Source of the DNA: Nannobrachium achirus
Taxonomy: Eukaryota; Chordata; Actinopteri; Myctophiformes; Myctophidae
Direction of reading: 5' to 3'
Assembly (NCBI GenBank): GCA_963921795.1
Contig: OY997653.1
Span: 1,097,501 to 1,161,500 of the forward strand
DNA: 64,000 nt
Under the pieces are notes generated by a model, which did no database searches, had not been told where the DNA came from, and saw only the letters and a list, made by a program, of their open reading frames with translations. Shown piece after piece: positions 1 through 46,759 of the stretch. Each line of letters starts with the position of its first letter. Within the stretch, counting starts at the first letter, position 1. Position numbers and translations under genes: made by a program.

Positions 1-891
1 CTGAGACAAAAATGTTTGGGAACCCCTGGTCTATGGAAATAGTTAGATCCTGCAAATAACTGCCCCACACCTAAAAGGAAAACAGAAATGTAATTTGTAT
101 TTATTTATATGTTCAATGTTCAATGCCAAAAACACAATCCAATCGCAGTTATTTGTATGATCGTTGAGTAAAATGTCATGATCATTTGATAGTCGGGGGC
201 CCCAGGGATATTTTGGTTCAGATTCTCGCAAATTTGCCAAATTTGGCACAGATGTTGTCCATAACATACTTAATCATTTTAAGATGGGTGCCAAGATGGG
301 CGCCCCATGGTACTGCCATATTGCGCAATCCAATATGGCTGCCACCTGGAAAAAAAAACGAAAAGGTCTAGAATCATAAATGATACCACTTTGTAGGGGT
401 TTTCTGGGTTGTAGAATCTGATTCTGGTGTTATTTCAATGATTTGAGGTCAAGATTACCCCTCAAGGTCAAGTTTACTCATCAAAGTTAGTATATAAAGG
501 TAAAATCCAGTATTTCTAGTGCGCCACGCCAGATTCTACCCCCCCAAAAGTTGTTTTTCTCATTATAAGCTATACTTGTATAATGTAGCAATGTTTCACA
601 ATTCAAAACAATATTGTCAAAACAGTTGATAGTTTATTCTAAACAATAAACTAATACAAACATTTTTCAATTAAAACTGATATGTGCCAACAAAATCAAA
701 AAAGAACAAGAAAAAAAATGTCTAGGGACATACAGCACAAAATGTTCACAAGTCCAACTTCAACTGTAAGTAAACAACTGACAGTAGTGGACAATGTAAT
801 CAGAATAGTGTGTTTTTCCGTAAAACTTGATAAAATCTAAAAGTTAGATCACAATGTCATTCACATTCTTTATTGTGTCTGTCTATCTTCT

Positions 892-1204
892 AGGTGGGAA
901 ACCATCCCACCTACCCAAGCTGCACTGTTCCAGCATGTCAAGCGAGCGCTACTGCAGGCAAGGTTCTACTGGAATCAGGCAACCTCGGTCCAGCAGGAAA
1001 TTCCTGACTTCAGTGAGTGGGGCTGGCACAAAGATGGCACTGGCACATGGCAACCACTGTGGACCACTCTTAGTGATGCATCAGCAGCATGTGACCTTCT
1101 TGTGCGCTGCGGCTGCCTCAAGGGATGCATGGGAAGGTGCAAATGCAACTGTATCGGTGTCCGATGCACAATCCTCTGCAAATGCGAAGGTGGGTGCCTT
1201 AATA
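892..1204 (+). pseudogene. CXC (Tesmin/TSO1-like) domain fragment inside foldback element 1
   Basis: In one frame the sequence reads IPPTQAALFQHVKRALLQ, then a W-rich stretch (FSEWGWHKDG, WQPLWTTLSDASAAC), then a cysteine cluster LLVRCGCLKGCMGRCKCN and CTILCKCEGGC before a stop. From memory, this is the usual C-terminal tail of large multicopy proteins of unknown function in aquatic animal genomes, with a CXC-type zinc-binding cluster. There is no start codon or upstream domain, so it is a captured or leftover 3' end. A related tail is found twice in the foldback element at 42790-46132. The host transposon family is not identified. Confidence 0.6.
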
Positions 1205-1235
1205 ACGGAGATGACAGCCAGTAACTCTACACCTT

Positions 1236-1570
1236 GCAAGGTGTTTCATGTGGATGAAAGATCCTATCCTCAATGAGACCTGCAGCATAGTGAGTGGTCG
1301 CCTCAAAGCCTTACCTACACACTGCCTTTATGGCCTCTCTGGCATCCTCCCCCCTGACCTCCGCAGAACATTCACCACAGAAGTTGAACGCACAAAGCAG
1401 GCCATCTTCACCCAGCATCTACTCCATAGATACTCTTCTGCCCAGAAACGGCTCCATTCTAGGAGCAGTTTCCTGGACACCAGAGTGGCTCTGGAGACCA
1501 CCCCATCCGCCCCAGACAAATGCCTCGCCATCGGTCATGACCAACCTTGGGCTGTCTGGAAGACACTGAG
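1236..1570 (+). pseudogene. LINE reverse transcriptase C-terminal fragment
   Basis: The frame reads PILNETCSIVSGRLKALPT, then GLSGILPPDLRR, then KRLHSRSSFL. This has the layout of the region after the palm domain in jockey/RTE-like LINE polymerases (N-x-x-x-R-I-x-x-G-x-L-x-x-T-P, then GI-x-P-x-x-x-RR). The catalytic palm is absent, so only the C-terminal end is here. It lies directly after the CXC fragment and between the arms of the foldback element. The clade is uncertain. Confidence 0.45.
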
Positions 1571-2375
1571 CGTCGGTGAAGGAAGGTGCAAGGCTTCCAT
1601 GAAGAAATGAAACTTAACCTCCGATGACTTGGCCGAACCAACTGTTGCTGTGCTGGCCTGCACATACCATTGAAAGGACTTGTTATAGAAGATAGACAGA
1701 CACAATAAAGAATGTGAATGACATTATGATCTAACTTTTTGATTTTATCAAGTTTTACGGAAAAACAAACTATTCTGATTACATTGTCCCCTACTGTCAG
1801 TTGTTTACTTACAGTTGAAGTTGGACTTTTTCGATTTTGTTGGCACATATCAGTTTTAATTGAAAATTGTTTGTATTAGTTTATTGTTTATAATAAACAA
1901 TCAACAGTTTTGACAATATTCAATATTGTTTTGAATTGTGAAACATTGCTACATTATACAACTTAAGTATAGCTTATAATGAGAAACTAGAAATACTGGA
2001 TTTTACACCGATAATATCTTTATATACTTACTTTGATGGGTAATCTTGACCTCAAATCATTGAAATAACACCAGAATCAGATTCTACGACCCAGAAAACC
2101 CCTAAAAAGTGGTATAATTTATGATTCTAGGCCTTTTCGGGGGGGTTTTTTTCTCGGATGGCAGCCATATTGGATTGCACAAACAGTACCATGGGGCGCC
2201 CATCTTGGCACCCATCTTAAAATGATTAAGTATCATATGGACAACATCTGTGCCAAATTTGGCAAATTTGCGAGAATCTGAACCAAACGGTCCTTTTATT
2301 GCCCTGGGGCCGACGAGTGTTCAGTGTTGGCATTACTATACTTTGTATACTATACTTTCTGAACACAAACTGATG

Positions 2376-4489: not shown

Positions 4490-4720
4490 CATTTGTAACA
4501 TTTGTAACTAAAACTTTGCTTCTGGGGGGTCCCTGGAACTAAATATTTTGAAATGGGGTCCGTGGCCAAATACATATCATTTTGGGGGTCCTTCACATGA
4601 AAAGGTTTGAGCACCACTGACATAGAAACAACATACATTCAAAGACTTGCGTGTGTTCACGATTTTTCAAAAATAGCTGTGAGCTTGTATATCTGCTATT
4701 TTTCAATAGTTAAAGCACAA
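4490..4720 (-). mobile_element. hAT-type MITE (CAGTGGTTCTCAAAC family) with hairpin repeat
   Basis: Read on the minus strand this starts CAGTGGTGCTCAAACC, followed by GGACCCCCAAAATGATATG and GGCCACGGACCCC. It is the widespread fish hAT-like MITE. Other copies here lie at 12060-12260 (split), 26918-27105, 34880-35040 and 41180-41307. The short palindromic repeat AAAAATAGC...GAGCTTGTATATCTGC lies next to it at 4665-4706. From 4720 to 5239 no feature was found apart from a CT-rich run near 4770-4800. Confidence 0.65.
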
Positions 4721-5239
4721 AATGTGAGCGGGTCCTTGTACGCAGGGCCCAGACTTTGGTGCGACACTCCTGCTCTCTCTCTCTCTCCCCCTAGCTCTCT
4801 CTTATTCTCGGTCTCAACAGGGAGTGCCACACTGGCCAGTCAGTGATTCTGTTAGGAGGTGGTTCTGGGTTATTTCTTCCCCCTGTCGTCTCCCTCCTAT
4901 GTCCTCATTTTAACCCTCTGGGGAGGAGGTACTTCTTTAGCTCCCGTGAATGGGCATTGCAAAGGCACATCTCATTGTTTGTTTGTACCCCCGATATACA
5001 AGTATACAGGTATACATACTGTACGTATTATGTTTTCCTTGCATACACGTTAAATCCAAACTACTTTATCACTGAGTTACAAAGGAAAACATGCATAACT
5101 ATGAACTAACATAACTTCCAGTATAAGCGACCGGCAGGGCGCTCGGAAACAACAGACTTTTCAAATGAGGCAGTGTATGATACAACACATACAAAAAAAA
5201 GAACTCCTTGCAGACAAAACAAAATAAAATCAGCTCCAT

Positions 5240-8200: not shown

Positions 8201-9303
8201 CCTTTATGGCCTTCGGTAAGACTTTCCACATTTTGGTGGTATAGCAGAAAAAAGAGTTTGACCCTTTGTTGGTTTTGACTCTGGGTTGACTTGAAAGTGA
8301 TCTATGGCGCTGCCTCTGGTGTTGTAATTATGGACATCCTTAATGTTTATAAAGTATTTTGACAGGTATACTTGGTACTTGGTACTCTGAGTTGGGTCTA
8401 AAATGGCAGTTCGGTGACCGTGGAGAGCAAAGGTCCGTTTCTCAATGGATTTGTCATCTAGGAGGGTTATTAAACACATTTGGCCGGGGTGTCTTTTTTA
8501 AAATGGCTGGGAAAATGTTTGACAGCTAGGGTAATTTCCAGTCTCATTCACTTGCTATACACAGGCAAAAATGACTCCCAAAAAATCTGCTTTAAGTGGG
8601 ATGTAAGGGGTCAAACTAGGGGTTTTTAATTATTCTGAATCCATTGCAAGCATTTGTTTTGCATGAAAAACATTCCTTGGGCTAAAAACCCCAAAAATTG
8701 ATAACTCATCACTAAACCATCGTATTGTGGGCCCATTTCTTGCCCAAGGGATGTTTTTCATGCCAAACAAATGCTTGCAATGGTTTCAGAATAATTAAAA
8801 ACCCCTAGTTTGACCCCTCACATCCCACTTAAAACAGATTTTTTGGGAGTCATTTCTTCCTTTATAGTGTAGACACCCCGGCCAAATGTGTTTAATAACC
8901 CTCCTAGATGACAAATCCATTGAAAAACGGACCTTTGCTCTCCACGGTCACGGAACTGCCATTTTAGACCCAACTATAAACTGTGTCCTGCTTTATAGTA
9001 CAGTGGATGAGGACGCACACATTCTAGCTAACACTATAGAAAACTGTTATGCAAAGTAGTAGCCACTGATTAAAGTAGCCTACAATTAGCTTGAAGTTGT
9101 CGCAGGGGTGGTGTAAAGTAAAGTAACTAATGATTTCTGTATAAAACGTGACACCTGAAAACCATCCATTTAGCATCCTCCTGGCAGCGGTGCGGCGAGC
9201 ACCCGCCATCTTAGCTGCTTTGGAGATCAAAGAAACACCCAAATTTGGGGAGAAAAAAAGACGAAAATCGATTAATCTTACCAACGGGTAGGGGTATGTT
9301 CAT
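5240..9303 (-). CDS. Diverged ribosomal protein L12 (uL11) paralogue, six exons
   Basis: Exons, in transcript order, are 9282-9303, 6887-6963, 6699-6803, 6504-6555, 5882-5971 and 5240-5358. All introns are GT-AG, phases agree, and the joined frame gives 154 residues and a stop. It starts MNIPLPVVTQMTCLGGN, continues KKLCHEITEVTGVNWKGFEV, then GNLTFDHVVDIARALR, HLSGTIKEVLSFAEDLGC and ends LVCPRQ. This tracks human RPL12 (165 residues; ATGDWKGLRITV, GNITFDEIVNIAR, ELSGTIKEILGTAQSVGC, VECPAS) along its whole length. uL11 normally sits at the base of the ribosomal stalk in the GTPase centre. Here the proline-rich N-terminal loop (APKIGPLGLSP in human) is replaced by a G/N-rich stretch, and about ten residues around PSASALIIK are missing. 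The C-terminal rRNA-binding half is better kept. The start was chosen because it is the only ATG whose exon ends in phase 1 at GTAAGA and completes the V codon of exon 2. It may be a specialised or non-ribosomal paralogue, or a decaying copy, but no stop or frameshift is seen. Confidence 0.8.
5577..5815 (+). repeat. tRNA-derived SINE in the last intron of the L12-like gene
   Basis: An A-box-like segment (TGTCAGTCGGTAGAGC) and a B box (GGGTTCAATTCC) are spaced as in a tRNA promoter, followed by a tRNA-unrelated body ending near AATAAAGATCTG. It is in the opposite orientation to the host gene. It does not fold as a full tRNA because no matching acceptor stem is seen, so it is a SINE rather than a tRNA gene. 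Confidence 0.75.
7118..7790. mobile_element. Nested inverted-repeat elements in intron 1 of the L12-like gene
   Basis: The outer pair is TATGTTCCCCAGGTTCT (about 7119) and its inverse AGAACCTGGGGAACATA (about 7769). Within it lies a cleaner element at 7212-7754 with ends AGCCCCTTTTCCAC and, inverted, AGCCCCTTTTCGAC. That element is flanked on both sides by ATA (7209-7211 and 7755-7757), a 3 bp target duplication. The interior has GGTGTGGTGTGG-type runs and TATAGTGTATTATAAT repeats at 7440-7600. No protein is encoded. A Harbinger-like origin is possible from the 3 bp duplication. Confidence 0.65.
7830..8388 (-). pseudogene. 3' end of LINE family B
   Basis: Starts with an ATTGATTG tail on the plus strand, so the element points left. 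The minus frame reads VYLSKYFINIKDVHNYNTRG, then KGQTLFSAIPPK. This matches the C-terminal part of the LINE at 14845-16090 (YLTNYFLKVKDVHDHNTRG, QGANSFSCYTINMWN). It is 5'-truncated, and the boundary with the foldback element at 8389 cuts the frame. Confidence 0.7.
8389..8970. mobile_element. Foldback element with the shared core
   Basis: The arms are inverted copies (AGTTGGGTCTAAAATGGCAG at 8389 and its inverse near 8970). The right end reads CCCAACTA, so the terminal sequence is TAGTTGGG with the first base altered on the left. The inner part contains AATCCATTGCAAGCATTTGT and AAACTAGGGGTTT in both orientations. That core is also in the elements at 12390-13045 and 17645-18655. No protein is encoded. 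Confidence 0.65.
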
Positions 9304-12262: not shown

Positions 12263-12389
12263 GGAAGCCCCCTAAGGTAGGGTGACCATATTTTCAGCCG
12301 CTCAAACTGGGACGCAAACCACTGCTGCCTGAAACCGGGACCCTCAAAGCAATGCGCACGTTACCGCGCAACTGATGGAGCTGTGCTAA

Positions 12390-13045
12390 TAGTCCAGTAA
12401 AAATAAAGCTGAGGTTGGAAAAAATTGTGTTATTTAGTTTTTCAACTGATTCTGACAGGAAATTAGGTCTACTAGCCAGGATAAAAAATCTACCATAATC
12501 TGCTCACTCCAAATACCCACAGTGGCCAAATCAAGTTGGGCTCCCATCGACTTTCTATACAGGAGGAAAATACTCAGAAAAAAAATCAGCTTTAAGTAGG
12601 ATGTGAGGGGTCTAACTAGGGGTTTGTCATGATGCTGAATCCATTGCAAGCATTTGTTTTGCGCAAAAAACATTCATTGGCCCCAGAAAACGCCCACAAA
12701 ACTGATGAAAAGTGATGACTCATCACTTTTCATCACTAAACCATCATTTTCTGGGGCCATTTGTAGCCCAAGGAATGTTTTTTGTGCAAAACAAATGCTT
12801 GCAATGGATTCAGCATCATGACAAACCCCTAGTTAGACCCCTCACATCCTACTTAAAGCAGATTTTTTAGAAAGTCGATGGAAGCCCACCTTGATTTGGC
12901 CACTGTGGGTATTTGCAGTGAGCAGATTATGGTAGATTTTTTATCCTGGCTAGTAGACATAATTTCCTGTCAGAATCAGTTGAGAAACTAAATAACACAT
13001 TTTTTTGCAACCTGAGTGGATTTTTTTCCTAGAATTACTAGACTA
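12390..13045. mobile_element. Foldback element 2, TAGTC type, TSD TAA
   Basis: The ends are TAGTCCAGTAA on the left and TAGTCTAGTAA on the inverted right end. TAA flanks both sides (12387-12389 and 13046-13048). The arms are long inverted repeats with AGGTTGGAAAAA, CAGGAAATTAGGTCTAC and AATCTGCTCACT in the left arm and their inverses in the right arm. The core with AATCCATTGCAAGCATTTGT is shared with the elements at 8389 and 17645. No protein is encoded. Confidence 0.8.
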
Positions 13046-13086
13046 TAAAGGGAATGTCAATGTCAATGAATGATCCATATATATGG

Positions 13087-14425
13087 CGCACTGTCGTTTT
13101 TTGAGAAAATTAAAGGCTTTTAAGCGCTCTACAAGATCAGCCATGTAGGAGGGGCCAGACCATTTTTTATTTAAAAGCAAACAGAAGGATTTTAAAATCT
13201 ATTCTATATTTGACGGGGAGCCAGTGGAGTGAGGCCAGAACTGGTGTGATATGATTGAATTTGTTGGTACTAGTAAGAAGGCGGGCAGCAGCATTTTGTA
13301 CTAATTGTAGGCGCCTGAGAGAGGACAGGTCAATACCATAATAATCCAGTCGAGATGTAATAAAGGCATGGATTACTGTTTCAAATTGTTTGAGGGGTAG
13401 ATAGGGTTTTATTTGGGCAAGCAGTCGTAAATGGAAAAAGCTGGTTTTGACAGTGGAACTGATCTGTTTATCGAATTTGAAATTGCTGTCAAAGATAACG
13501 CCAAGGTTTTTTGCACTGTTATGAATATTGGATGAGAGGGGACCTAGGCTATTGACAGAAGAGGTGGGATGGTTTCCAAAGAGGATGATTTCGGTTTTGT
13601 TATTGTTAAGATGTAGGAAATTTGCGTCCATCCAGATTTTAATATCGTCTAAGCAGTTGATCAGTGGCTGGAGGGGATTATTGCAATTGGATGTGAGTGG
13701 CATGTAAATTTGAACGTCGTCAGCGTAACAATGAAAGGCAATATTATGTTTGGCTAGGATGGATCCAATAGGCAACATGTATAGTAAAAACAATAGAGGG
13801 TCCAAAATTGAGCCCTGTGGGACCCCACAAGTGAGGGGAGCTGCTGGTGAGGAAAATTCCCCTAGCTGGACGGAGAAGGTCCTATCCGTTAGATAGGACC
13901 TAAACCAGGCTAGGGCGACTCCAGAGATGCCAACCTGATTTTCGAGCCGTGAGAGCAGGATTCTATGGTCCACTGTATCAAAGGCAGCCGAGAGGTCAAG
14001 CAAAACTAAAATGGCTGGGCTACCTGAGTCAACTGATAAAATTAGATCATTAAAAACTTTTAAAAGGGCTGTTTCCGTACTATGGCCCGGTTTAAAACCT
14101 GATTGAAACTTTTCGTGGAGATCATGGTTGATTAAAAATGATTATAGCTGGGCATATACTATTTTTTCCAGAACTTTGGATAGGAAGGGTAGCTGGGAGA
14201 TGGGTCTGAAGTTTGAGAGGGTAGATGGATCTAAGTTTTTCTTTTTTAATAACGGGTGCACAACAGCATGTTTGAATGGGGCTGGGACATGTCCAGAGAG
14301 GAGACTTGTGTTTAAGAGGGACAGAAGGGTTGGGCCCACAGAGCAGAAAACTTCTTTTAGGAGACGAGGGGGGATGTTGTTCCAGGGACCCCAGAAGCAG
14401 AGATTTGACTTGCAAAAGTTTGATT
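13087..14425 (-). pseudogene. L2/CR1-type LINE, reverse transcriptase domain, 5'-truncated
   Basis: The minus frame covers RT fingers (HAVVHPLLKKK, LSNFRPISQLPFLSKVLEKI), then FQSGFKPGHSTETALLKVFN, LDLSAAFDTVDHRILLSRL, CGVPQGSILDPLLFLLYM, the catalytic CYADDVQIY and the thumb-like NLGVIFDSNFKFDKQ and LVQNAAARLL. One in-frame stop lies at 14142-14144, and a further stop at 13167 ends the frame near ILLFAFK, after which coding-like sequence (NGLAPPTW) continues briefly with stops. The endonuclease domain is missing. The YADD box and FDS-x-x-x-F pattern fit the fish L2 group; the exact clade is not settled. Confidence 0.8.
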
Positions 14426-14844
14426 TGAATATATGAATATATATATTTAAACTGATGGAAACTGATGATCCACTGTCATGCATTATACTTGATCAAAGAA
14501 TGTCCAGTTAATGACTCCAACTGACTACTAGTACTTATAGGATGACTTGGACCATCTTATAGTATAAAACTTATAGTATACAAAAGCCCCTTTGCTTGAC
14601 TCACTATAGGCTGGTGCATACCGACAACTATAGTCAATCTTTCCAGGTTCTGATTAGCAAATCTGAAATAGATTGTATAATTTTAGATAATAAAACAAAA
14701 GCGAGACGAAATAATCTTTGCTGTAACCCTTTATTTGCAATTCATTGTGTGAATGCTGTTCATTGTGTGAATGCTGTCATGTTGCCTCCTATTCTGGGGG
14801 TACACAATTCTTGTGTTCATACATACATGAACCCTGTCCCCCCC

Positions 14845-16090
14845 CTCCCAGTAAACTGTGGAGTACCTCAAGGGAGTATACTAGGACCACTGTTGTTCTT
14901 AATATACGTAAACGACATGTCATCTGCTTGTGACTGCAATCTGTTTCTGTTCGCGGATGACTCGGCTCTCCTAGTCTCAGACAGAGACATTTTGCAGGTT
15001 GAAAAGGCCCTTAACTGTGAACTTAACAAGATCTGCACCTGGCTCAATGACAACAGACTCTCAATTCACCTAGGCAAAACTGAATGTATCCTCTTTGGAT
15101 CTAGTCAGAAACTTAGCCTAGTTGAGAACTTCACAATTAAAGTAGGTGACACTGTGATAGAAAGAAAAAACCACATCTGCTACCTGGGTTGCATCCTGGA
15201 GGCTAACCTATCCAGTGAAAAAATGACCACCAAGGTAATCAATAAAGTCAATCAACGAATTCGCTTCTTGCAAAGAGTTGCCCCACTGATCAATATTAAA
15301 TCCCGAAAGACACTAGGAGGTGCTCTTATTGGGCCCCTCATTGATTACGGAGTCCTTGTCTGGTATCGCGACGCCCCAGCTGCCTTAAAGCTAAAGCTCC
15401 AAACAGCCCAAAACAAACTAATTAGGGTTGTGCTTGGTCTCCCTCCTCTGACCCACCTTACCGAGCATAACCACGAAAGCGTGGGGTGGCTCAAAGTAGC
15501 TGACAGAGTACAGCATCTTGCAATGGGCCTGGTGTACAAGATACACTACACCTCCAAGATTCCCATGTACCTGACAAACTACTTCTTAAAGGTCAAGGAT
15601 GTTCACGATCATAACACCAGAGGCAGCTCCACTAATCATCATCAGCGTAGATTTAACACTAAACAAGGTGCTAACTCGTTCTCCTGCTATACCATCAACA
15701 TGTGGAACGCCCTTCCACAAGCCCTAAAGGAGAGCAAATCCCTAGCCTCCTTCAAAATTGGTATGAAAAGTCACCTTCAGACAGCAGCTACCCGTGACTT
15801 GTAAATAGACTAAGCCCCCATGCTCCCCCCCCCCCCCCCCCTTTTTCTTTGTATTCTGCCTTTTGTATTTGATGTTATGCTTTTGAAACTGATATTATCC
15901 TGGATAAAGTACTATGTTCTATCCGTCTGTCTTTCAATGTTATATGAGATACTTAAAGTGTGGTTCCTGTGGAAATAAGCCTCGGCTTTCTAGGATCTCC
16001 TTTTAGTTGACCTTGTACCAGTGATTTGTACTGTCATGAAACTGTACTTTTTTCTATTGCAAACTTCTAATAAATTCTTCAATCAAAAAA
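14845..16090 (+). pseudogene. LINE family B, reverse transcriptase C-terminal part and 3' UTR
   Basis: From about 14845 the open frame runs without a break to 15804: VNCGVPQGSILGPLLFLIYV, NLFLFADDSALLVS (catalytic ADD), DNRLSIHLGKTECILFG, YLGCILEANLS, then the C-terminal YFLKVKDVHDHNTRGSST and MWNALPQALKESKSLASFK. The 3' UTR has a C run at 15826 and ends with AAATTCTTCAATC and A's. The polymerase N-terminus and endonuclease are missing, so it is 5'-truncated. Further copies are at 7830, 9974, 12076 and 63056. It belongs to the CR1/jockey side of LINEs, clade unresolved. The open frame upstream of 14845 is unrelated and includes a short GTGTGAATGCTGTTCATT tandem. Confidence 0.8.
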
Positions 16091-16332
16091 AACATTTCAT
16101 GTAATTTAAATCAGAACAATCAGACATGAAAAAGTCAAGACTAGTTTATAAATTTATTTTAATGCAAGTACATTGTTGGAGAACAAAAAACAAAAAATAT
16201 CAGTCAATGGTCAGGTAAATAGAGTGCCAAGTACAGAGTCAGAGGTCATTCCACAGCTTGTGAGCCAGGAGGGAGAAGAGTCTTGGCCAGGGTGTCATAG
16301 GGAATGGAAGGGTGTTGTCTCCGTGAAGCAGC
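16091..16332. other. Unassigned stretch
   Basis: AT-rich then mixed sequence with a short open frame (GQVNRVPSTESEVIPQ). It shows no domain, splice signal or repeat match that I can support. Confidence 0.3.
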
Positions 16333-17520
16333 AATGGCAGAGTTTCCCAAAGCGATTATAGCCCATCGTAGCTCACGCATGGTCGTAGAGACCAAGCCCT
16401 GACCGTCATGTTCCTGTGTTTAGCTGGGTTCGGGCAGAGCGACTTATTTAGCCCCCTACAACTACACCAACATTCAGATTTCACAAAGTGCATAATAAAA
16501 TCTCACTACTGTCTAAATGGTACGGCATTCTATAATTACCCGTATCCTCCGTGGAAGCCTTTTTACCCGATAGCGTTCTGTTTTCCCATGTATTTCCTGG
16601 TGTTCCCCATGCGCACCAACCCCATTGAGATAAACAGACAGTGACAGTAAAAAGGCTTCTTATTAACTTTTTCAGCGCAGATCAACTGCCAGATCAACAT
16701 TGTTATTAGGGAGCTCTCTGCCGATCGACTCTCAGATCGACTTTTATATAAAAGCAATGTTTTAGCATTTTTTTCGATATATTAGCGGCGCAAACGGTTT
16801 CCCCTACCTTGTACTGGCTGTAACGATAGACCGTGGGAAAAAAAGGATGCGCTGATGACGTCACTGGAATTCAGGCCTTGTCTGTGTAAGAAGGCCGCTC
16901 CCAGCCGTTAGCCTGCTAACATACTAACAACATCCATAACGCCGCTTCAGTAGGTCGGATTTTCATTCCGATTTTTTTGTGTGGCGTCTGCATCCGACCA
17001 TTTGCCCGGACGATAGGTCAATGTGAACGATCTGCCACGAATCGTTTAGATCCGACCGTTGTGTACTCCGGTGCGCCGCCATTTTAAAACCCATAGAGGA
17101 GGGGCTTTTCACACAGCTTCATACAGAGACCTGTTATGTTTACAGTGTTACGATGGTGCGCTCTAGTGGTGTTTTAGGGGGTAGTTTATCATCTCTCTGG
17201 TCAAACTCATACAATTGATCACATTAAAATATGAATATTTCCTGGCATTATTAGCGCACATCCATATTTTAAGTTCGCAGGAAGAAAACGGAGGATACGG
17301 GTAATTATAGAAAGCTGTGCCGTATTTAGACAGGTGTGAGACTTTATTAAGCACTTTGTTTGTGAAATCTTAATGATGGTATAGTTGTAGGGGGCTATAA
17401 ATAAGTCGCTCTGCCCGAAACCATATGAACACGGGAACATGACGATCGGGGCTTGGTCTCTATGACCATGTGTGAGCTACGTTGGGCTTACGATGGGCTA
17501 AAATCGCTTTGGGAAACCCA
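16333..17520. mobile_element. DNA transposon relic with GTTTCCCAAAGCGAT ends
   Basis: The left arm 16333-16560 begins CAGAGTTTCCCAAAGCGATT, and the right arm 17285-17520 gives the inverse with GGGTTTCCCAAAGCGATT. The arms match through CTCTGCCCGAA, GTAGGGGGCTA, TTTAGACAG and GGATACGGGTAATTATAG. The middle 720 bp is non-coding as far as I can see. No clear target duplication. Sequences starting GGGTTTCCC are common non-autonomous elements in fish; the superfamily is not determined. Confidence 0.65.
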
Positions 17521-17526
17521 GCCAAT

Positions 17527-19190
17527 AAGGTTTAGTTAGCAACCACTTCCTGGAAGGGCCTAGGCTGTCTGTTGACTGCACTCTGGAATAAATACCCCAA
17601 ACCGGGCTGTGAAGAGCACTTCGGTGCTGTGCTGCTCCTCCAGATAGTCCATGGGCCAGACGGGTTGTCAGTATCAAAAAGGTGGCAAAGGTTACCATGC
17701 ATTTTTGAAAAGCTCTATATCTGTAGATTATATTTTGGTATGATAACCCTTTCTTAGACACAGCTAAATTGGTGTTATCAGCCGCTGGAGTTGGTGTCCC
17801 ATTAACTTTACATTACAGGGAAAAAAAGCAAAATAATAATCTGCTTTTAGTAGCATAAGAGGGGTCAAACTAGGGGTTTGTCATGATGCCGAATCCATTG
17901 CAAGCATTTGTTTTGCACAAAAAAAACATTCCTTGGGCTATAAATGGCCTCAGAAAACGATGCATGTATGGGTGTGCATTCATGTTAATCAGAGGCCTTA
18001 GGGTTTTATTTCTCGTGCTAATCAGTCTAAAAGTGACACATTTTGCACAGATGTAGCCCAGGGCATGCTCTAATGATTTAGCTAGGGCGCCCGAGTCGGT
18101 GACCTGCGGTGACAGCTCCAGAAAAACAATGGTTTAGTGATGAAAAGTGATGAGTCATCACTTTTCAGAGTTTTGTGGATGTTTTCTGGAGCCCGAAGGT
18201 CACCGACTTGGGCGCCCTAGCTAAATCATTAGAGCATGCCCTGGGCTACATCTGTGCAAAATTTGGCGTTTTTAGACTGATTAGCATGAGAAATAAAACC
18301 CTAAGGCCTCCGACTAACATGAATGCACACCCATACATGCATCGTCTTCTGAGGCCATTTATAGCCCAAGGAATGTTTTTTGTACAAAACAGATGATTGC
18401 AATGGATTCGGCATCATGAAAACCCCCTAGTTCGACCCCTCTTATGCTACTAAAAGCAGATACATTTTTTTACATTTTTTCCTGTAATGTAATGTTAATG
18501 GGACACCAACTCTAGAGGCTGATAACACCAATTTAGCTGTGTCTAAGAAAGGGTTATCATACCAAAATATAATCTACAGATATAGAGCTTTTCAAAAATG
18601 CATGGTAACCTTTGCCACCTTTTTGATACCGACAACCCGTCTGGCCCATGGACTAAGAGTGCCAAATGGTCAGCCGCCTCTGTTGGTCCTGGCATGAATT
18701 CGGAGGGGTCTTACACCTGATTGCACCCACCCTCGGCCAGTGTATTTGGTATCCCCCTGCCTTAAGCAAATAAAGAGTTGAATTACCTTTTTGTAAAAGG
18801 ATAATATTGGCGCAGTATGGCGAAGTCATGATAGGCCAAGCTTAGGCAACTACATAGTATAATGGGCTAAACTGCCAAACTTGCCAAGTTCAAATTGTTA
18901 CCCCTGGGTGACCCAGGGGTAAACAGTGCAATAAAACGTAAAACATAGTCTTCTGTTTTCATCCACGGCCTCGAGAACAGAGACAGAACCTGTGGTGAAC
19001 ATCACGGAGAAATCATGTCCCATGGGACATCAAGCTGATTTCCAGGCCCTCCAAAGTTGTCCAAGTGGAACAGACTCGGGGTGTATTCGCAGCGACAGCA
19101 ATCCTGTCTGAAGACATCAATCCGGTCGTGGACGATGAAGGGATAATTTTTTAGATTATAAAAAATAATACCACCTTTTTCATGGAAAGA
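17527..19190. repeat. Partial copy of unit Z, split by foldback element 3
   Basis: 17527-17644 plus 18656-19130 match 22175-22715 and 40035-40540, including GGGCTGTGAAGAGCACTTCG and CATGTCCCATGGGACATC. The minus strand of 17527-17644 carries the coding piece described for unit Z. The copy diverges after about 19130. It is the most decayed of the three. Confidence 0.8.
17645..18655. mobile_element. Foldback element 3, TAGTC type, TSD AGA
   Basis: The ends are TAGTCCATGGGCCAGACGGG and its inverse. AGA lies on both sides (17642-17644 and 18656-18658). The sister copies at 22275 and 40133 read CTCCAGAGTGCC without the element, which proves insertion with a 3 bp duplication. The arms pair almost to the centre, through AAATCATTAGAGCATGCC and the core AATCCATTGCAAGCATTTGT. 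No protein is encoded. Confidence 0.9.
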
Positions 19191-20770: not shown

Positions 20771-21867
20771 AATATACATATATTAAAGTAACTGTCATCT
20801 GAAAAAAAAAAACATGTTAGTGGATTATTTATGACATCCTCTACCTATTGTAATTCATAAAATCCAATACAAATGTATCATTTTGTATTGTATGCTGCCC
20901 AAAACGGGATTCCTCAAGACTCAAACCAGACTTTTTCCAAGAATTGTAGCTTTCTAGTTTTCCTATTGTACTGTTTAAACTGCTATTTTTAGTGTAGTGT
21001 CTCAGTAAACTAGAATCACTGGTAAACTGTCTCTCTGCATAAATGGTCTGATAAATGCATACTGTACAATATAAATGTGAAGTGACTTTACCAAAATGTA
21101 TGGTTTTCAACTTGTAAAAAAAAAGGGAAAAAAAGGCACTGGTATGGAACTCCTGGTTTACCGGGACGGGGTTCAATTGCTTTTTCTTTTTAATTTTACT
21201 TTTTTGTAATTGTAATTATATGGCATTTCTGAAAATACTGTAAATGCTTATATTATCCTATGAACACCACAAGCATGAGTCAGGTTTAATAACAACATGT
21301 ATTCCTCATTGAACCTTCAGGACAGCTACAGTGCAGAAATCTGCTTCATTAAAGCATTCATATTACACAACTAAAAATTGTATATTTAAGTGAAAATATA
21401 ATATTTGAGATGCTTTACATCAGTGCAACGAGTGCATAAACAATACAATATAGGAACAAAGAATTCCATTCAAACTTAAAGTGCAGCCACAAATGAATAA
21501 AAATAAAATAATAAGATTATTGTTCAACTGTAATGTAATAAATGGATAAGTTGCATTGGCTGCCAATATCTGCATTTCTTAGAACAAGCAACAGCTGCCT
21601 TAACATTGTTCATTATTGGTCAATGAGGTAATGAAGTCAGCCTTCATGCTAGCCTCCATGAAAAAAATTAGGCCCTACTGACCTTTAGAAGATGAGAAAA
21701 ATAGGCCCTACTGACCTTTAGAAATGTTGGAACTAGCCCCGAGGGCTAGCCTCCATGAAATAATTAGGCCCTACTGACCTTAAGATGTTGGTGTAAAAAT
21801 GTTGGGGATAGCCTCCATGAAAATGACACTTACAAATACATTTGGAACTATAGCCCTGAGGGCTGGC
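20771..21867. other. Non-coding part of unit Z
   Basis: 20771-21270 is specific to this copy and has no recognised feature. 21270-21867 matches 39250-39780 closely and contains a tandem of a roughly 50 bp unit with TAGGCCCTACTGACCTTTAG at 21665-21790. No coding signal. Confidence 0.5.
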
Positions 21868-22317
21868 CTAGTCCTTTAATTTGAGATTTAAATCATACAC
21901 CTTGGAAGACACAGTCTTCTTTGCAACCAGCTCCAGAAATATCTTCTGGAAGACCTCGAACGTGAACTTCAACGGCTTCGGGAAACTGTGTTCCAACGAG
22001 TACATGAGGCCCATCAGGCATGTACATGCCGTTGCTACATCAGGGACGAAGAGGACCTCTGTTCCCTCGATGGCGATACCCGCCCCTTTGTCTCGACCAT
22101 CGGCGCCCCGGCTGACAACAAAGATTTTCAGAACCATCTTAGCGATGGCCTCCTGGACCTCGGCAGCATCGTTGTCAACCACTTCCTGGAAGGGCCTAGG
22201 CTGTCTGTTGACTGCACTCTGGAATAAATACCCCAAACCGGGCTGTGAAGAGCACTTCGGTGCTGTGCTGCTCCTCCAGAGTGCCAAATGGTCAGCCGCC
22301 TCTGTTGGTCCTGGCAT
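21868..22317 (-). pseudogene. C-terminal part of a multicopy fish protein (often labelled SAMD3-like)
   Basis: The open minus frame of 149 codons reads PGLGYLFQSAVNRQPRPFQE, VQEAIAKMVLKIFVVSRGAD, GIAIEGTEVLFVPDVATACT, then MYSLEHSFPKPLKFTFEVFQ and KIFLELVAKKTVSSKVYDL before the stop. The pattern I-x-x-M-x-x-x-I-F-V-V, GI-x-IEG-x-x-VL, F-x-L-x-Y-x-FEVFQK is, from memory, the C-terminal end of abundant fish proteins annotated as SAMD3-like, of unknown function. There is no SAM domain or start here. A second copy at 39751-40173 has lost its C-terminal part, and a third piece is at 17527-17644. It could be a live 3' exon or a relic of a mobile gene. Confidence 0.5.
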
Positions 22318-23005
22318 GAATTCGGAGGGGTCTTACACCTGATGGCACCCACCCTCGGCCAGTGCATTTGGTATCCCCCTGCCTTAAGCAAATAAAGAGT
22401 TGAATTACCTTTTTGTAAAAGATAATATTGGCGCAGTATGGCAACAGTATAGGCATGGCAGGCCAAGCTAAGGCAACTACATAGTATAATGGGCTAAACT
22501 CTTCTGCCAAACTTGCCAAGTTCAAATTAATACCCCTGGGAGACCCCTGCCTCGAGAACAGAGACAGAACCTGTGGTGAACATCACAGAGAAATCATGTC
22601 CCATGGGACATCAAGCTGATTTCCAGGCCCTCCAAAGTTGTCCAAGTGGAACAGACTCGGGGTGTAGTCGCAGTAACAGCAATCCTGTCTGAAGACAGGA
22701 TTGCCACTGTGTTAAACTACAATTCCGGTCGTGGACATACCTCAGTAAGGCACCAGATGGCAAAACACATCCGTTGATCGAAGAGTATAGGGCAGTGATT
22801 CTGAGACTCCCCTAGGGGTCCTTGGGGGGGGGGGTTTCAGGGGGTCCCCAGCAATAAGTTAAGTGGTGAGACAGCGTCAAAGGAGGAGAGGCAGGATTTT
22901 ATAAACGTCCTGGGCTCCACCTTCACTCCCGGCACCACCGCCACAGACTCCACTTCCATCACCACATCCATATTTTCTACCCCCTCCTTGGGGGGTTGGT
23001 CGGCG
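22318..23005. repeat. Remainder of unit Z, copy 0
   Basis: Matches 40174-40835 closely: GCACCCACCCTCGGCCAGTG, CATGTCCCATGGGACATC, then GGGGTCCTTGGGGGG and ACCCCCTCCTTGGGGGG. The minus strand near 22850-23000 has a coding-like frame (EGVENMDVVMEVESVAVVPG). The segment stops at 23005 where the inverted-repeat block begins. Confidence 0.7.
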
Positions 23006-39244: not shown

Positions 39245-40835
39245 GTGAGTCAGCATGAGTCAGGTTTAATAACATGTATTCCTCATTGAACCTTCAGGAC
39301 AGCTACAGTGCAGAAATCTGCTTCATTAAAGCATTCATATTACACAACTAAAAATTGTATATTTAAGTGAAATTATAATATTTGAGATGCTTTACATCAG
39401 TGCAACGAGTGCATAAACAATACAATATAGGAACAAAATATTCCATTCAAACTTAAAGTGCAGCCACAAATGAATAAAAATAAAATAATAAGATTATTGT
39501 TCAACTGTAATGTAATAAATGGATAAGTTGCATTGGCTGCCATTATCTGCATTTCTTAGAACAAGCAACAGCTGCCTTAAAATTGTTCATTATTGGTCAA
39601 TGAGGTAATGAAGTCAGCCTTCATGCTAGCCTCCATGAAAAAATAGGCCCTACTGACCTTTAGAAGATGAGAAAATAGGCCCTACTGACCTTTAGATGTT
39701 GAAATGTTGGAACTAGCCCCGAGGGCTAGCCTCCATGAAAAAATTAGGCCCTACTGACCTTTAGAACAATTAGAAATACATTTGGAACTATAGCCCTGAA
39801 ACTGTGTTCCAACGAGTACATTTGGAACTATACCACTGAAACTGTGTTCCAACGAGTACATGAGGCCCATCAGGCATGTGCACGCCGTTGCTACATCAGG
39901 GACGAAGAGGACCTCTGTTCCCTCGATGGCGATACCCGCCCCTTTGTCTCGACCATCGGCGCCCCGGCTGACAACAAAGATTTTCAGAACCATCTTAGCG
40001 ATGGCCTCCTGGACCTCGGCAGCATCGTTGTCAACCACTTCCTGGAAGGGCCTAGGCTGTCTGTTGACTGCACTCTGGAATAAATACCCCAAACCGGGCT
40101 GTGAAGAGCACTTCGGTGCTGTGCTGCTCCTCCAGAGTGCCAAATGGTCAGCCGCCTCTGTTGGTCCTGGCATGAATTCGGAGGGGTCTTACACCTGATG
40201 GCACCCACCCTCGGCCAGTGCATTTGGTATCCCCCTGCCTTAAGCAAATAAAGAGTTGAATTACCTTTTTGTAAAAGATAATATTGGCGCAGTATGGCAA
40301 CAGTATAGGCATGGCAGGCCAAGCTAAGGCAACTACATAGTATAATGGGCTAAACTCTTCTGCCAAACTTGCCAAGTTCAAATTAATACCCCTGGGAGAC
40401 CCCTGCCTCGAGAACAGAGACAGAACCTGTGGTGAACATCACAGAGAAATCATGTCCCATGGGACATCAAGCTGATTTCCAGGCCCTCCAAAGTTGTCCA
40501 AGTGGAACAGACTCGGGGTGTAGTCGCAGTAACTGTGTTAAACGACAATTCCGGTCGTGGACATACCTCAGTAAGGCACCAGATGGCAAAACACATCCGT
40601 TGATCGAAGAGTATAGGGCAGTGATTCTCAGAGTGAGACTACCCTAGGGGTCCTTGGGGGGGGGTTTCAGGGGGTCCCCAGCAATAAGTTAAGTGGTGAG
40701 ACAGCGTCAAAGGAGGAGAGGCAGGATTTTATAAACGTCCTGGGCTCCACCTTCACTCCCGGCACCACCGCCACAGACTCCACTTCCATCACCACATCCA
40801 TATTTTCTACCCCCTCCTTGGGGGGTTGGTCGGCG
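39245..40835. repeat. Unit Z, copy 1
   Basis: Close match to 21270-23005, ending ACCCCCTCCTTGGGGGG then TTGGTCGGCG and passing straight into unit X. This Z-X junction is the empty site for the 23006-34560 block. A local duplication of ACTGTGTTCCAACGAGTACA is present at 39797 and 39839. Confidence 0.8.
39751..40173 (-). pseudogene. Second copy of the SAMD3-like C-terminal segment, truncated
   Basis: Identical in reading to the copy at 21868-22317 through GIAIEGTEVLFVPDVATACT and MYSLEHSF. Then the conserved FTFEVFQKIFLEL end is replaced by a duplicated GIVPNVLVGTQFQG-type stretch. The loss of the conserved end marks this copy as broken. Confidence 0.55.
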
Positions 40836-43800
40836 AGACCTCCACCTCCGCCTCCGGCAGCAGGCTTGTCCCTATTTTCTACCCCCTCCTGTATGGCACG
40901 TTGGTCGGCGAGATGGCAGCAGGCTACGGGTGGTCTCAAAATAAGAGACTCTGAACTTTTCTTTGAAGATAAGCCAGATTGTGTTAAGGGTGATTAAAAT
41001 GATTGTGATGCAATTTTAAAACCCATTTAGGCCTAGAATTATTGAATGATTTAACCAGTGAAAAATAGCAGATATACAAGCTCAGTGCCGCGCTGCGAGC
41101 TTGTAGATCTGCTATTTTTGAAAAAGTCGTGAAAATCTTTGCAAATCTTTGAACATATGTATTTTCAAAGCGAACCTTTTGTAACACAAATTGTGCTTCT
41201 GGGTGGTCCCTGGAAGCTGGAACTAAATATTTTCAGATGGGGGTCCGTGGCCAAATACATATCATTTTGGGGGTCCTTCACATGAAAAAGTTTGAGAACC
41301 ACTGACATAGTAGTCTCTAAAGAACAGACTAACTGAGCTCCAGTTAAGTGAAAAGGACCTTTTCTTTGACGATGGCTGGCCAGATTGCTGACATAGAAAC
41401 ACAGGTTTTTCAAAAATAGCAGATCTACAAGCTTGCAGCGCGGCACTCGGTTTCAATAGCTAAAGCATAAAATAATTATACACAATAATGTGTACCCGTT
41501 CTAAATGGGATTTCATTCTGTGACAGAAGAGAATAGACATGCATAATATGACATAGATTACATTGCGTTTACTGTATAACATTGGCCATGTTACAGGCAT
41601 GATGGTTCAATAATTATTCAATTCATCAAGTTAATACTGTACATATTTAACAGACTATCTTACCACTGAATGTCCTGACATGGTCTCATCATATTGTCAT
41701 CATATACAGTAGATCAACATGTCAACGTATTTATTTAGCGGCATATACAAATAACATAATACCGCCATACCGCAGTCGTGTAATGCATACTGTGGTGTCA
41801 AGTTTGTAACCGCAACTAGAAAATATTGTTCCTTCGAAACAAGTGTGGGCTCGCTTCAAGCCAGAAAACAATGGCTATAAAAGTACAAAATGTCAAGATT
41901 GCAGGCAGTGCTCTCTTTGACGTTACTGACGTCAAAGATTGGTCCATTTTGTTCCAAAAATGTGTTGTGCAAAAGTTGACCCGCTGGTGGCGCTATAACA
42001 GGCCAATGTGAGAAGGGTGGTATCTGTTCCTTGACCTATTGGGAATGTGCTTGCAAGATTTCACGCACATTGCAGGCTGTGTTCATGATTTGAGGTGTTT
42101 TTGGCTTTGGCCACTTTATCGCTGCTTGCAGCTATATTTATTATTATTATTATTATTATTATTTGTGTGTGTGCACTTCATAGGCATATTAGATAAAGGT
42201 CCTTAGATTGTGTGTAGAATGTTTCATGCAAATTGCTAAAAAAATCCTAACGGGTTTAAAGTGTTTCACAAACTGCTCAAAATGATATAGCGCCCCCCTT
42301 TGGCCAATTGGAGTAAGATTGGTTTTAGTGATATTTGGACTAACACTCTACATCTTTGCCAAATGCCATGAACATGTGACTTTGCATGTATGATTTAGAG
42401 GCAGAAGAATAATTAGCATAAAACTGCAATATGCATTGAATTATTAAAATAGCATTTTTCAATTGAAATCCGATCTGACAGATCTTTAGATATTGGTCCA
42501 AAGTTCATGTAAAAAAAGTTTTGTGCACGTAACGTGAAAATTCCAGAATAAAAGCGTTTTACAAACTGCTCAAAATGGCGGAAAATCTAAGGGTGGAGCT
42601 TTGATTTCTTCTGCAAAGCACGCGTGTAAGCAAGTTGCATGTCTTCAAACGAAACGAGTCATGACTTATGCCCGTTTGAAGTTTGAATTTTCAAACGCTT
42701 TGTATAGCGCCCCCCTTTGGCCAATTGGAATAAGATTGGTTTCAGTGATATTTTGACTAACCCTCTACATCTTTGCCAAATGCCATGAATAGTCAGGTCT
42801 GCTATGTTAATAAAGGTTTATTCGTTGGATTTTTTTGGAGATTTGTAAAACTATACATTTTTGGAATCTTCAGAGCATGGGGAATCCAAAAATTTTTGTT
42901 TGCATTTGCACAGACACCTGCAAAGCCTCCATTTTGGACGTTCAAAATGGCCGACATAAAATACACAATTTGTGCTATCTTGGCTTCTAGACAACCTAGA
43001 AACGTAATTAAACATGCTAATCCTATGTGTTCTGGGTCAAGGAATCGAATGAATGAATGATGGATGTAAAATGTTCTGGACCCCACCCCCTTTTTGGGGG
43101 TTATCTATTTTGGGACCTCCCAGAACAGTACGCTAGCCAGTTAATGTCCGATTTTCATAATATTAGAGTTGTTTTGTAGGTTTTAAAACATCCCGAGTTC
43201 ATTTATTAGACTTTTAAAGCAGACAGAATAACCTTTCTGACTTTTGGTTGGGGTCTTTCCTCACCTGGGACCCCCTAGACAGACCCCTGTCTAGGGGTCT
43301 GTCTCAGTAATCGCTCTGCTACTGCTCCAGAACAATGTTAAATTAGATCATAATTGAAGCATAAAAGTTGTTGTAGCTGGGCTCTGAAAACAAAAATGAG
43401 TAGTAGCAAATACCAGGGGTCTTCCACAGGGGGTCCGGGACCCCTGCTGGGTCCTCAGAGTTACTACAGGGGGCCCACCAATCTTGATGGGATCTTTTTT
43501 TTCACATTTGAAACTGAAACTTTGAATGTTTTTATGTATCTTGGGTTTATTGCGGCCATAGGTCGCAGTTTGCGACCATAGGTCACAGTTTACTATCAGA
43601 ACCGTCACATCTTGACCGTATATATCTGTCTGTCTGGACGGGTAACGCTTTTTTGTTGATTGACTCTCACACTCTGGCATCCCGCTCTGACATCACTGTG
43701 ATGTCAGGGAACCAAATCCCCTTTATGCCCATATATGGAGATCCCTGTGATGCCAGGGGAACCATAAAAGGACAACTAGGTAGTCATCCGGCAACAGCTC

Positions 43801-44154
43801 ACAGCTGTGAAGCCGGGAGGAGTTCAGATTGACAATCAGGATCACAGGAGGGGAGGGTGCGAGCAAAGTGTGGTAGAACAGGGGAAGGGCAAGGGCCAGA
43901 CCCAGAATTTGACATAATGAAAGTATTGCAACTTCTCACTTGTGCAGACTAACGTGTCCATTTATTGCACTGCACTCACACTGACAACACAACACACACA
44001 CATACACACCTCTTTGTTATTGTCACCCCAAAACCCTCACCCTATCCTCTTAAAGAGCCCATGGTCAATTATGCCCAAAAAGATTCACTACAATGCAGTC
44101 ATTTCAGACATGCAGGATCTATTGTCTTCATCATTGTCATCTTCAATGTCCAAC

Positions 44155-44511
44155 CTAATAGTGTTGACACAGTCTCCACCATGGAGTGAAAGGCAGGTTA
44201 CTTGAGCAGCTGCACCGTCCCTTGCAGCCATATTTGATGAGCTCAAGTACTGCCTTTGGAGCAGGGAGGGCAAGACACCTGACTGGAAAATACCCTCCAC
44301 TCTCTGAATTCCATCTATTTTCTTCGATTGGTGGAAGCTCAGGGCAATTTGTCAGGTATGATTTATCCTGCATTGTGACATAGTTGGCACGGATGTGGTA
44401 GCAGTGCAGCACGAGTTGGAGGTAGCATCTCACCCTCAGTTCTTTGACAGAAATAGTTCCCATCTGAGTAATCGCAGGGTTGTTGGACCTTTTGAACTGT
44501 AAACATGGCAT
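44155..44511 (-). pseudogene. CXC-tail fragment, minus copy
   Basis: The frame reads YLTNCPELPPIEENRWNSES, GGYFPVRCLALPAPKAVLEL, then IKYGCKGRCSCSSNLPFTPW. The order W-x...LPAPKAVLELI-x-x-GCK-x-x-C is that of CXC-type protein tails from multicopy genes in aquatic animals (from memory). The cysteine cluster is only partly kept. It mirrors the plus copy at 44815-45031. Confidence 0.5.
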
Positions 44512-44814
44512 GCAAAATGCTCCAATGACTGCAATGTTGATGGAAGCTCACCAATAATAAGCTCAGGAGGAATGGAACCCTTTAAGGTCCTTGAAGTGGT
44601 TAATGACTTGGTCATCATCACCAGGCTTCAAGTAGGCATTGACCCATGTCTTTTTGGAGATTCTAACAAAATTATCTTCCCCAGCCAGCACCAGAAAAAT
44701 CATGTAGGCCAAGGAACCCTTGACATTTGTGACATCCAATAACTTGAACTTGCTTGAATATGTGTGTGCACTTCCACAAAATCATGTCCCTTGATGAAGG
44801 TATCGTATTATGAT

Positions 44815-45031
44815 GCCTACTTTGTCATACCTGACAAATTGCCCCAAGCTTCGATCAATCGAAGAAAATAGATGGCATTTAGAGAGTGGAGGGAATGTTC
44901 CAGTCAGGTGTCTTGCCCTCCCTGCTCCAAAGGCAGTACTTGAGCCCATCAAATTTGGCTGCAAAGCAGGTTGCACTCCTCCCTGCAAATGCTATGGTGG
45001 AGACTGTCAACACATATGTCTTGCAAATTAG
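44815..45031 (+). pseudogene. CXC-tail fragment, plus copy
   Basis: The frame reads LTNCPKLRSIEENRWHLESG, VPVRCLALPAPKAVLEPIKF, then GCKAGCTPPCKCYGGDC. This copy keeps the terminal CKCYGGDC part that the minus copy lacks. The two copies differ at many sites, so the inverted structure is not recent. Confidence 0.5.
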
Positions 45032-45124
45032 GGAGGACATGTACAGTATTTTAGTGAATCTCTTTGGGCATAATGAGCTCTTTAAGAGGATAGGGTGAGG
45101 CTTTTGGGGTGACGATTAACAAAG

Positions 45125-45228
<104 letters not shown>

Positions 45229-46759
45229 ATGTGTGTGTTTTGTCAGTGTGAGTGCAGTGCAATAAATGGACACGTTAGTCTGCACACCCAAAGTGAGAAG
45301 TTGCAATGCCTTAATCCCTGCAGTAACACCTGTCAACCATAACTGTCTAACACAAAAATTGTATAAATAATACTGAGCATACTAATAAATCATCGAAGTA
45401 CAATACATAAACCCAGGATACATAAAAACATACATAAAAAAGAAAATCCTTTCCCATTAAGATTTGGTGGGCCCCCTGTAGTAACTATGAGGACCCCCCA
45501 AGGGTCCCGGACCCCCTGAGGAAGACCTCTGGTATTTTGCTTACTCGTTTTTGTTTTCAGAGCCCAGCTACAACAACTTTTATGCTTCAATTATGATCTA
45601 ATTTAACATTGTTCTGGAGCAGGAGCAGAGCGATTACTGTGATAGGCTCATGGGTCTGTCTAGGGGGTCCCAGGTGAGGAAAGACCCCAACTAAAAGTCA
45701 GAACGGTTATTCTGGCTGCTTTAAAAGGCTAATGAATCAACTCAGGATGTTTTAAAACCTAAAGCTCTAATATTATGAAAAATACATTAACTGGCTAGCG
45801 TACTGTTCTGGGAGGTCCCAAAATAGATAACCGCAAGAAAGGGGGTGGGGGTCCGGAACATTTTACACCCATCATTTACTCAGTCGATTCCTTGACCCAG
45901 AAAACATAGGATTGGCATGTTTAATTAAGTTTCTAGGTTGTCTAGAAGCCAAGATAGCACAAATTATGTATTTTATGTCGGCCATTTTGAACGTCCAAAA
46001 TGGCGGCTTTGCAGGTGTCTGTGCAAATGCAAACAAAGATTTTTGGATTCCCCATGGTCTGCAGATTCCAGAAATGTATAGTTTTACTAATCTCCAAAAA
46101 AAGCCAACAAAAATACATAGTAGACCTGACTAGAACGTGTAACTTTGCATGTATGATTTAGAGAATAATTTGCATAAAAGTGCAATATTCAATGAATTAT
46201 TAAAAAAAATCATTATTTAACGTTCAAACTTGTCACCACATAGCCTGTGTAGATATAGGTTCAAATTTCATGTTAAAAAAGTTTCGTGCGCGTATCAGTG
46301 TTTTTCATATAATTCCAAATTCTGGGGGATCTAAAGGTCAGAGGTCAAAAGTCAGAGGGTAAAAGTTGTTCGGCATGAGGAGACACATACGTATATACAG
46401 GTTTCATGGCTGTACCTCAAACACAGCATGAGCTATCTGTTCAAAGTTTGCACTTTCGAAGGCTTCCTACAGCGCCACCATTTGGCCGATTGCTGTATAA
46501 AGTAATAGCACACGTCGCCACTGTAAGCTGAACACATTGATGTTTTTATTTTCATTTTCTCACTAAGTATGTAGGAGTGGAAAGGTGCCAAAGTATTGAG
46601 GAGAACTGTCTGACGTGACTGACCTATAAATATTGACAATATCTAAAGTGTGCTCGCCTTACAGGCGAGCCCACAATTATGATTTCATTCAAAACAATGT
46701 TTTGGGGGAGATACTGCCATATTGCCATTCCGTCTGTAAGTAAAGAAATATCTTTTACG

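Follow-up and report, generated by a model that had tools for sequence, protein, structure and literature searches.

Foldback elements with TAGTC ends in the fish Nannobrachium achirus as probable non-autonomous derivatives of AcademX transposons

Introduction

Academ is a known but little-studied transposon group. PMC10045372 describes AcademX elements as having target duplications of 3 or 4 bp and an encoded nuclease (references for the lineage: Kapitonov and Jurka 2010; Kojima 2020), and AcademH elements as encoding a helicase and duplicating 9 or 10 bp of the target. For Academ, duplications of 3 bp are also given together with the Academ miniature inverted-repeat transposable elements (MITEs) of insects held in iMITEdb, which average ~470 bp (PMC5199201), and the autonomous Academ elements of bivalves have a mean length of 5,565 bp (PMC10294476). 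Here we analyse a stretch of 64,000 nucleotides from the genome of the fish Nannobrachium achirus (C16:1097501-1161500 in our contig numbering, contig OY997653.1 of assembly GCA_963921795.1; hereafter the window), which holds four long palindromic elements with TAGTC ends, E1 to E4, and a fifth, probably older palindrome, E5. We conclude that E1-E4, and probably E5 with them, are very likely non-autonomous foldback derivatives of the Academ superfamily, AcademX lineage. The elements are new foldback members of a known superfamily, and no new superfamily is required.

Like the insect Academ MITEs, which are classed by their ends and 3 bp duplications (PMC5199201), the elements described here are non-autonomous; unlike them, they reach up to 3.3 kb, contain coding remnants in two cases and are foldbacks in all four, with inverted arms making up much of each element. 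Long inverted arms are also found in Galileo (P superfamily, PMC3573991), and a foldback structure in Tm1 (Mutator/Foldback, PMC3169594). Both differ from the elements here in transposase superfamily, ends and duplication length. Duplications of P-type elements measure 7-8 bp and those of Mutator elements ~9 bp. The Angel elements of zebrafish are another palindromic fish repeat; a literature look-up on them gave nothing useful among the entries listed. Within the open-access papers searched, which leave subscription papers and Repbase entries outside, we found none with both words 'Academ' and 'foldback', and in PMC11071193 the word 'Academ' does not occur.

Results

Four foldback elements with similar ends, two of them with exact empty sites

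Read directly, E2, E3 and E4 start with TAGTC, end with GACTA and are flanked by matching triplets, while E1 has a single base changed at its right end and no target duplication around it, its flanks being TGA and GTG (Table 1). Furthermore, E3 is exactly absent from two duplicated segments of the window, in each of which a single AGA is left, and E4 is exactly absent from one, where a single GAA is left. An initial examination of the window without database searches (the sequence-only reading) had proposed the four pairs of ends, including the one base change, the three triplets TAA, AGA and GAA, and a visible empty site for two elements, and all of these are confirmed.

The same reading had described the elements as self-pairing almost completely. 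This is accurate for E3, which is 91% self-complementary across all 1011 bp, and for E2, where a self-complementarity of 83% covers 627 of 656 bp. It applies less well to E1 and E4, whose centres are unpaired: the arms of E1 (~680 bp) are 79% complementary, and in E4 the outer arms (~760 bp) are 87% complementary and the inner arms pair at 77-88%. The four had also been taken for one family. Judged by sequence comparison, they are separate sequence families with similar ends instead, E2 and E3 having an inner core in common with E5. The ends of E5 read by eye as GAGTTGGG on the left and CCCAACTA on the right, one change short of a TAG...CTA pair, and no matching duplication was seen by eye at its flanks.

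Copies elsewhere in the genome carry their own 3-bp duplications

The 1.66-Gb assembly was searched for further copies. Because each genome search scored the ~40 best candidates, all copy counts are lower bounds. Further copies with 3-bp duplications, which the sequence-only reading had suggested looking for, were found. For E4, 30 loci were fetched, and the 23 that are full-length were counted after seven (L032-L038) had been dropped for incomplete alignment. Identical 3-mers flank 22 of the 23 copies, and none of the 23 pairs of flanks matches at 4, 5 or 6 bp. As a control, the flanks of different copies agree in 10 of 506 pairings. The 22 duplications include GAA, AAC, GTG and GGT. E3 was sampled by fetching 10 of 39 other places listed, all from full-length rows; every one starts with TAGTC, ends with GACTA and has a 3-bp duplication (10/10), and one of the ten, at C16:731714, represents the insertion seen in the window, copied by segmental duplication. 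The E2 sample comprises the best 8 of 40 candidates scored, including the window copy (L001) and a duplicate of that locus (L002, C16:1214300). Ends and a 3-bp duplication are present in six of these eight loci, and the remaining two have damaged ends. For the E1 family, five copies were read, namely E1 in the window and four places from the E1 search described below, and both ends and a duplication are present in two (L040 and L041). These observations support E1-E4 as mobile inverted-repeat elements with fixed ends and 3-bp duplications.

The palindromes might instead be inverted segmental duplications or assembly artefacts. The region of the window is indeed rich in such duplications, and the E2 and E3 copies at C16:1214300 and C16:731714 duplicate the window's own loci. 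However, E4 places are spread over 21 of contigs C1-C24, 22 of the 23 full-length E4 copies each have their own 3-bp duplication and the empty sites are exact; we consider this explanation almost certainly wrong.

Longer relatives carry a large gene

With E1 as query, we looked for places in the genome where the two ends of E1 stand further apart, and four of them (L039-L042) were read. L040 (TTA-TAGTC...GACTA-TTA, locus 94-4871) contains the broken remains of a large gene. Inside this gene-bearing copy lies a 748-bp tandem duplication (480-1804), 99.7% identical. L039 resembles L040 and includes a frame that looks reverse-transcriptase-like by eye; the right end of L039 (GACATGGG) is damaged, in our reading through loss of CTA ahead of the duplication CAT. 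L041 is a foldback (CTA-TAGTC...GACTA-CTA) with 92% self-complementarity, and L042 is a foldback with its left end lost.

A genome search with the latter half of the L039 protein as query gave 137 matches among 1,518 first-look candidates, and at least 24 of the 137 matched places, as counted from the listing, lie in frames that run for 1,000 codons or more without interruption. Four full frames were read, of 1499 (L043), 1495 (L044), 1707 (L045) and 1532 codons (L046). By eye, comparing two copies per family, we placed the ends of the L043, L044 and L046 families, which are ~6.6 kb, ~6.4 kb and ~6.7 kb long. All are of the form TAG...CTA, with TAGTG, TAGCG or TAGAC in place of TAGTC. A 3-bp duplication accompanies five of the six copies: TTG/TTG in both copies of the L043 family, TAA/TAA and TTG/TTG in the L046 family, and TAA/TAA in one copy of the L044 family, L044 itself having mismatched flanks (TAG/GAG). 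In L043 the inverted ends (2617-3033 and 8682-9202) are internally repetitive, with matches shifted by ~160 bp, and in this the autonomous element recalls the ends of Foldback and Galileo. The sequence-only reading had proposed to look for a longer copy in which these ends enclose a transposase frame. Such a copy exists in L040, albeit with a broken gene, and relatives elsewhere have uninterrupted frames.

E1 and E4 consist of two copies of a 3' end

When L039 and L040 are aligned to E1, the 3' side of the gene aligns to E1 1-512, while the 5' side aligns only to 23-345 or 23-346, so that both arms of E1 are copies of the 3' end. With tblastn, the C-terminal tail of the encoded protein was found as a remnant in E1, and E4 contains two such tails pointing outward (Table 1), by which both E4 arms are likewise copies of the 3' end. 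These comparisons show that in E1 and in E4 the 3' end of a transposon has been duplicated in inverted orientation.

E1 and L041 belong to the same family as L039 and L040 by long similarity. For two non-autonomous elements, the Repbase rule calls for equal duplication length and at most one mismatch in positions 1-11 (PMC4455052). Compared with L040 by eye, E2, E3 and E4 have TAGTC and 3 bp in common with it but fewer than 10 of the 11 end positions. E3 also has a 47-bp stretch that is 81% identical to the subterminal region of L039/L040. The putative membership of E2, E3 and E5 rests on their ends and duplication length, plus this stretch in E3.

On a different view, the TAGTC foldbacks would form a superfamily of their own, not yet described and with a distinct transposase, and the parts of an Academ-like gene in E1 and E4 would be no more than captured sequence. 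No Academ coding sequence is detected in E2, E3 and E5, as this view would have it, and the L043, L044 and L046 families do not end in TAGTC. Yet L040 holds its gene, even if broken, between TAGTC and GACTA and within a 3-bp duplication, the unrelated E1 and E4 families carry the same C-terminal tail where a 3' end is expected, and the duplication length is equal throughout. A separate superfamily is therefore very unlikely in our judgement.

The encoded protein has a probable nuclease domain

In the alignment of the full proteins, two CxxC...HxxC modules can be seen by eye in the N-terminal part, besides a conserved core and a C-terminal domain that closes with a cysteine-rich tail. Residues D866 and E870 (L043 numbering) are among those invariant in the core in 5 of 5 sequences. 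The core also matches DUF6589, under the cut-off of that family (E 2.5e-5 for L045, 0.17 for L043 and 0.022 for the L040 piece). In the C-terminal domain D66, D109, E198, D200, D224, D226 and D286 are invariant in all 17 aligned sequences, and these seven acidic residues match the order of D34, D86, E158, E160, D179, D181 and D233 in the FEN1 of this genome. The nuclease of AcademX is of the XPG type. Two of the proteins were compared with NCBIfam, without a match.

CACTA (EnSpm) elements have CACTA/G ends, and Harbinger elements make TWA duplications. Both can produce 3-bp duplications, and a CACTA or Harbinger origin with altered ends would be compatible with that length. The ends here, however, are TAG...CTA and not CACTA, the duplications (AGA, GAA, AAC, GTG, GGT) are not TWA, and Pfam searches of the four full proteins at E up to 1 found no CACTA, Harbinger or ISAzo13-like transposase domain. 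With ends, duplications and protein all in disagreement, the sequence-only reading was right to set both groups aside, and we give this origin virtually no weight. Zator, which has 3-bp duplications and an ISAzo13-like transposase (PMC10045372), was considered as a further candidate: its duplication length fits, and it was rejected on the same Pfam result.

Probable placement in the AcademX lineage

As in AcademX, duplications of 3 bp are found in E2-E4, in L040 and L041, and in the L043, L044 and L046 families. The large protein, with its CxxC...HxxC modules, core and FEN1-ordered acidic C-terminal domain, is likened to AcademX by description. The autonomous copies, at 6.4-6.7 kb, compare with the mean of 5,565 bp for bivalve Academ elements (PMC10294476). 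Unlike AcademX, E1-E4 are palindromic and non-autonomous, and two of them are built from two 3' ends. The sequence-only reading could name no matching family, and this is not supported, given that the traits agree with those described for the Academ superfamily, AcademX lineage, in PMC10045372. By that reading, a match to a described superfamily would refute novelty; the Academ traits come close to such a match, the elements being named by traits and not by homology to a reference.

Several observations weigh against this placement. The name AcademX is taken from published traits and not from homology to a named Academ entry. Neither E2, E3 nor E5 contains a coding remnant detectable by tblastn, and the searches gave none of E2, E3 and E4 a partner with a gene; when the E4 coding remnant was used as query for an intact partner, the best 40 of 1,773 candidates, 97-100% alike, looked like E4 copies. 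Within the E1 family, the window E1, L039 and L042 are without a complete pair of ends, and for L045 ends were sought and none found. Finally, short ends with a 3-bp match lie only a little above chance within the window alone. In a scan of the window for TAG...CTA pairs that have a 3-bp duplication and whose 20-bp ends match each other, and with the mean of 10 Markov-resampled windows as expectation, we observed 31 pairs with 23.2 expected at 12 of 20 matches, 10 with 6.5 expected at 13 and 4 with 1.4 expected at 14. E3 and E4 are among the four pairs at 14 matches, while E2 falls under the 13-match cut since its two ends diverge after the first bases. Because short ends are such a poor detector in the window, the case depends on the genome copies and the empty sites.

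The same caution extends to the nuclease. A profile search against solved structures returned seven rows: YacP twice (E 0.021), Exonuclease 1 four times (0.42-0.78) and an apolipoprotein (0.58). YacP and Exonuclease 1 are members of the PIN/FEN superfamily. An alignment to FEN1 with hhalign gave E 0.0028 over 39 columns around GCD at a probability of 11%, a weak result, and Pfam matches for the 17 C-terminal-domain sequences are at chance level, for example NYN_YacP at 0.13 and PIN_4 at 0.18 (one of 17 sequences each). A genome search with Pfam XPG_I found seven places, host FEN1 and XPG-like genes among them, none of which coincides with the listed Academ-like loci. FEN1 relatives sought in genome contigs and relatives of the nuclease domain sought in viral contigs yielded none that could be confirmed. 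Despite the FEN1-ordered acidic residues, these weak profile scores and the XPG_I result lead us to grade the C-terminal domain as a probable, not a proven, nuclease.

Proposed origin of the foldbacks

We propose movement in trans, with intact transposase of the AcademX-like kind supplied from another place in the genome. It would bind the terminal sequences, excise the element at TAG/CTA and insert it at staggered 3-bp cuts, the 3-bp duplication then arising by gap filling. Each foldback may have arisen once, when DNA synthesis copying the 3' end of an element switched template to the opposite strand, for instance during repair of an excision gap, so that both termini of the product were 3' ends. 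Once complete, the palindrome would have multiplied as a unit. Divergence of E4 copies from their majority sequence is 0.72-1.44%, and their median pairwise identity is 98%, so that the copies differ far less among themselves than the arms within one copy. With copies 98% alike and outer arms 87% complementary, the palindrome presumably formed before its arms diverged, and multiplication of the entire element came last.

The palindromes could also have formed within Academ by two tail-to-tail insertions followed by deletion of the middle. This route would leave the same structure, with two outward 3' ends and an unpaired centre, but it requires two very close insertions in opposite orientation with both 3' ends retained. 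In E1, the left arm runs to near 703 and is followed from 708 by coding sequence in inverted orientation. Such a junction, simple and single, argues against tail-to-tail insertion and is not decisive. We regard that origin as rather unlikely, and template switching remains the route that we prefer.

A more speculative extension, which we think improbable, is that AcademX transposons are inherently prone to form foldbacks, which would then be no accident: the FEN1/XPG-like domain would act on hairpin or flap intermediates in excision or gap repair, so that inverted duplications of the 3' end recur and are tolerated as substrates. If true, the independent E1 and E4 families, each with two 3' ends, would be products of that route.

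With the placement in AcademX, four unexplained palindromes can be counted and dated as products of a transposon group that is already known, and the construction of two foldback families from two copies of one end is revealed. The genome has at least 24 stop-free AcademX-like frames that span 1,000 codons or more, and foldback copies are ~1% from their majority sequence. Many uninterrupted frames together with little-diverged foldbacks make it a good system for asking what role a FEN1/XPG-like domain plays in a transposase.

Table 1. Positions within the window of the foldback elements, their target duplications, empty sites and coding remnants.
Feature	Positions	Strand	Basis and details
E1 foldback	190..2316	+	TGA-TAGTC...GACGA-GTG; right end with 1 base changed, flanks differ
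C-terminal tail remnant in E1	880..1225	+	tblastn; 86-88% to L039-encoded tail; 45% to L043 protein, E 7e-24
E5 foldback, probably older	8389..8976	+	inner core common to E2 and E3
E2 foldback	12390..13045	+	TAGTC...GACTA; ends and flanks read directly
E2 target duplication TAA	left 12387..12389, right 13046..13048	+	direct reading
E3 foldback	17645..18655	+	TAGTC...GACTA; ends and flanks read directly
E3 target duplication AGA	left 17642..17644, right 18656..18658	+	direct reading and empty sites
E3 empty sites, duplicated copies 1 and 2	22236..22325; 40092..40181	+	exact absence of E3, single AGA
E4 empty site, duplicated segment	36233..36335	+	exact absence of E4, single GAA
E4 foldback	42790..46132	+	TAGTC...GACTA; ends and flanks read directly
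E4 target duplication GAA	left 42787..42789, right 46133..46135	+	direct reading and empty site
C-terminal tail remnant in E4, toward left end	44200..44454	-	tblastn, best E 3.5e-7
Second, inverted tail copy in E4, toward right end	44801..45028	+	tblastn, best E 2e-4

Other features of the window

An Rfam scan of the window gave nothing at gathering thresholds. Segmental duplications of ~91-98% identity, both direct and inverted, include 21272-23005, 34570-37277, 39252-42789 and 46133-47190, among others; together with the duplicates of the E2 and E3 loci at 1214300 and 731714 of C16, they make this contig look duplication-rich over roughly its first megabase. A 107-bp palindrome at 32366-32472 is 98% self-complementary, rich in GCTAACG/CGTTAGC and unlike the TAGTC elements. 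Short hairpins of ~60-80 bp lie at 33367-33445, 41061-41119, 60171-60246 and 55409-55466; AGCTTGTAGATCTGCTATTTT occurs in those at 33367-33445 and 41061-41119, and by BLAST the other two resemble the one at 33367-33445.

Frames resembling those of other transposons were noted by eye. Inverted 340-bp repeats with long CA/GT tracts (46793-49737) flank frames that look LINE-like (47855-49013), the frames at 54413-55105 and 56309-57354 resemble hAT-like or other transposon-derived proteins, and an open frame at 61158-61766 resembles a Penelope-type reverse transcriptase (YIDDVFF).

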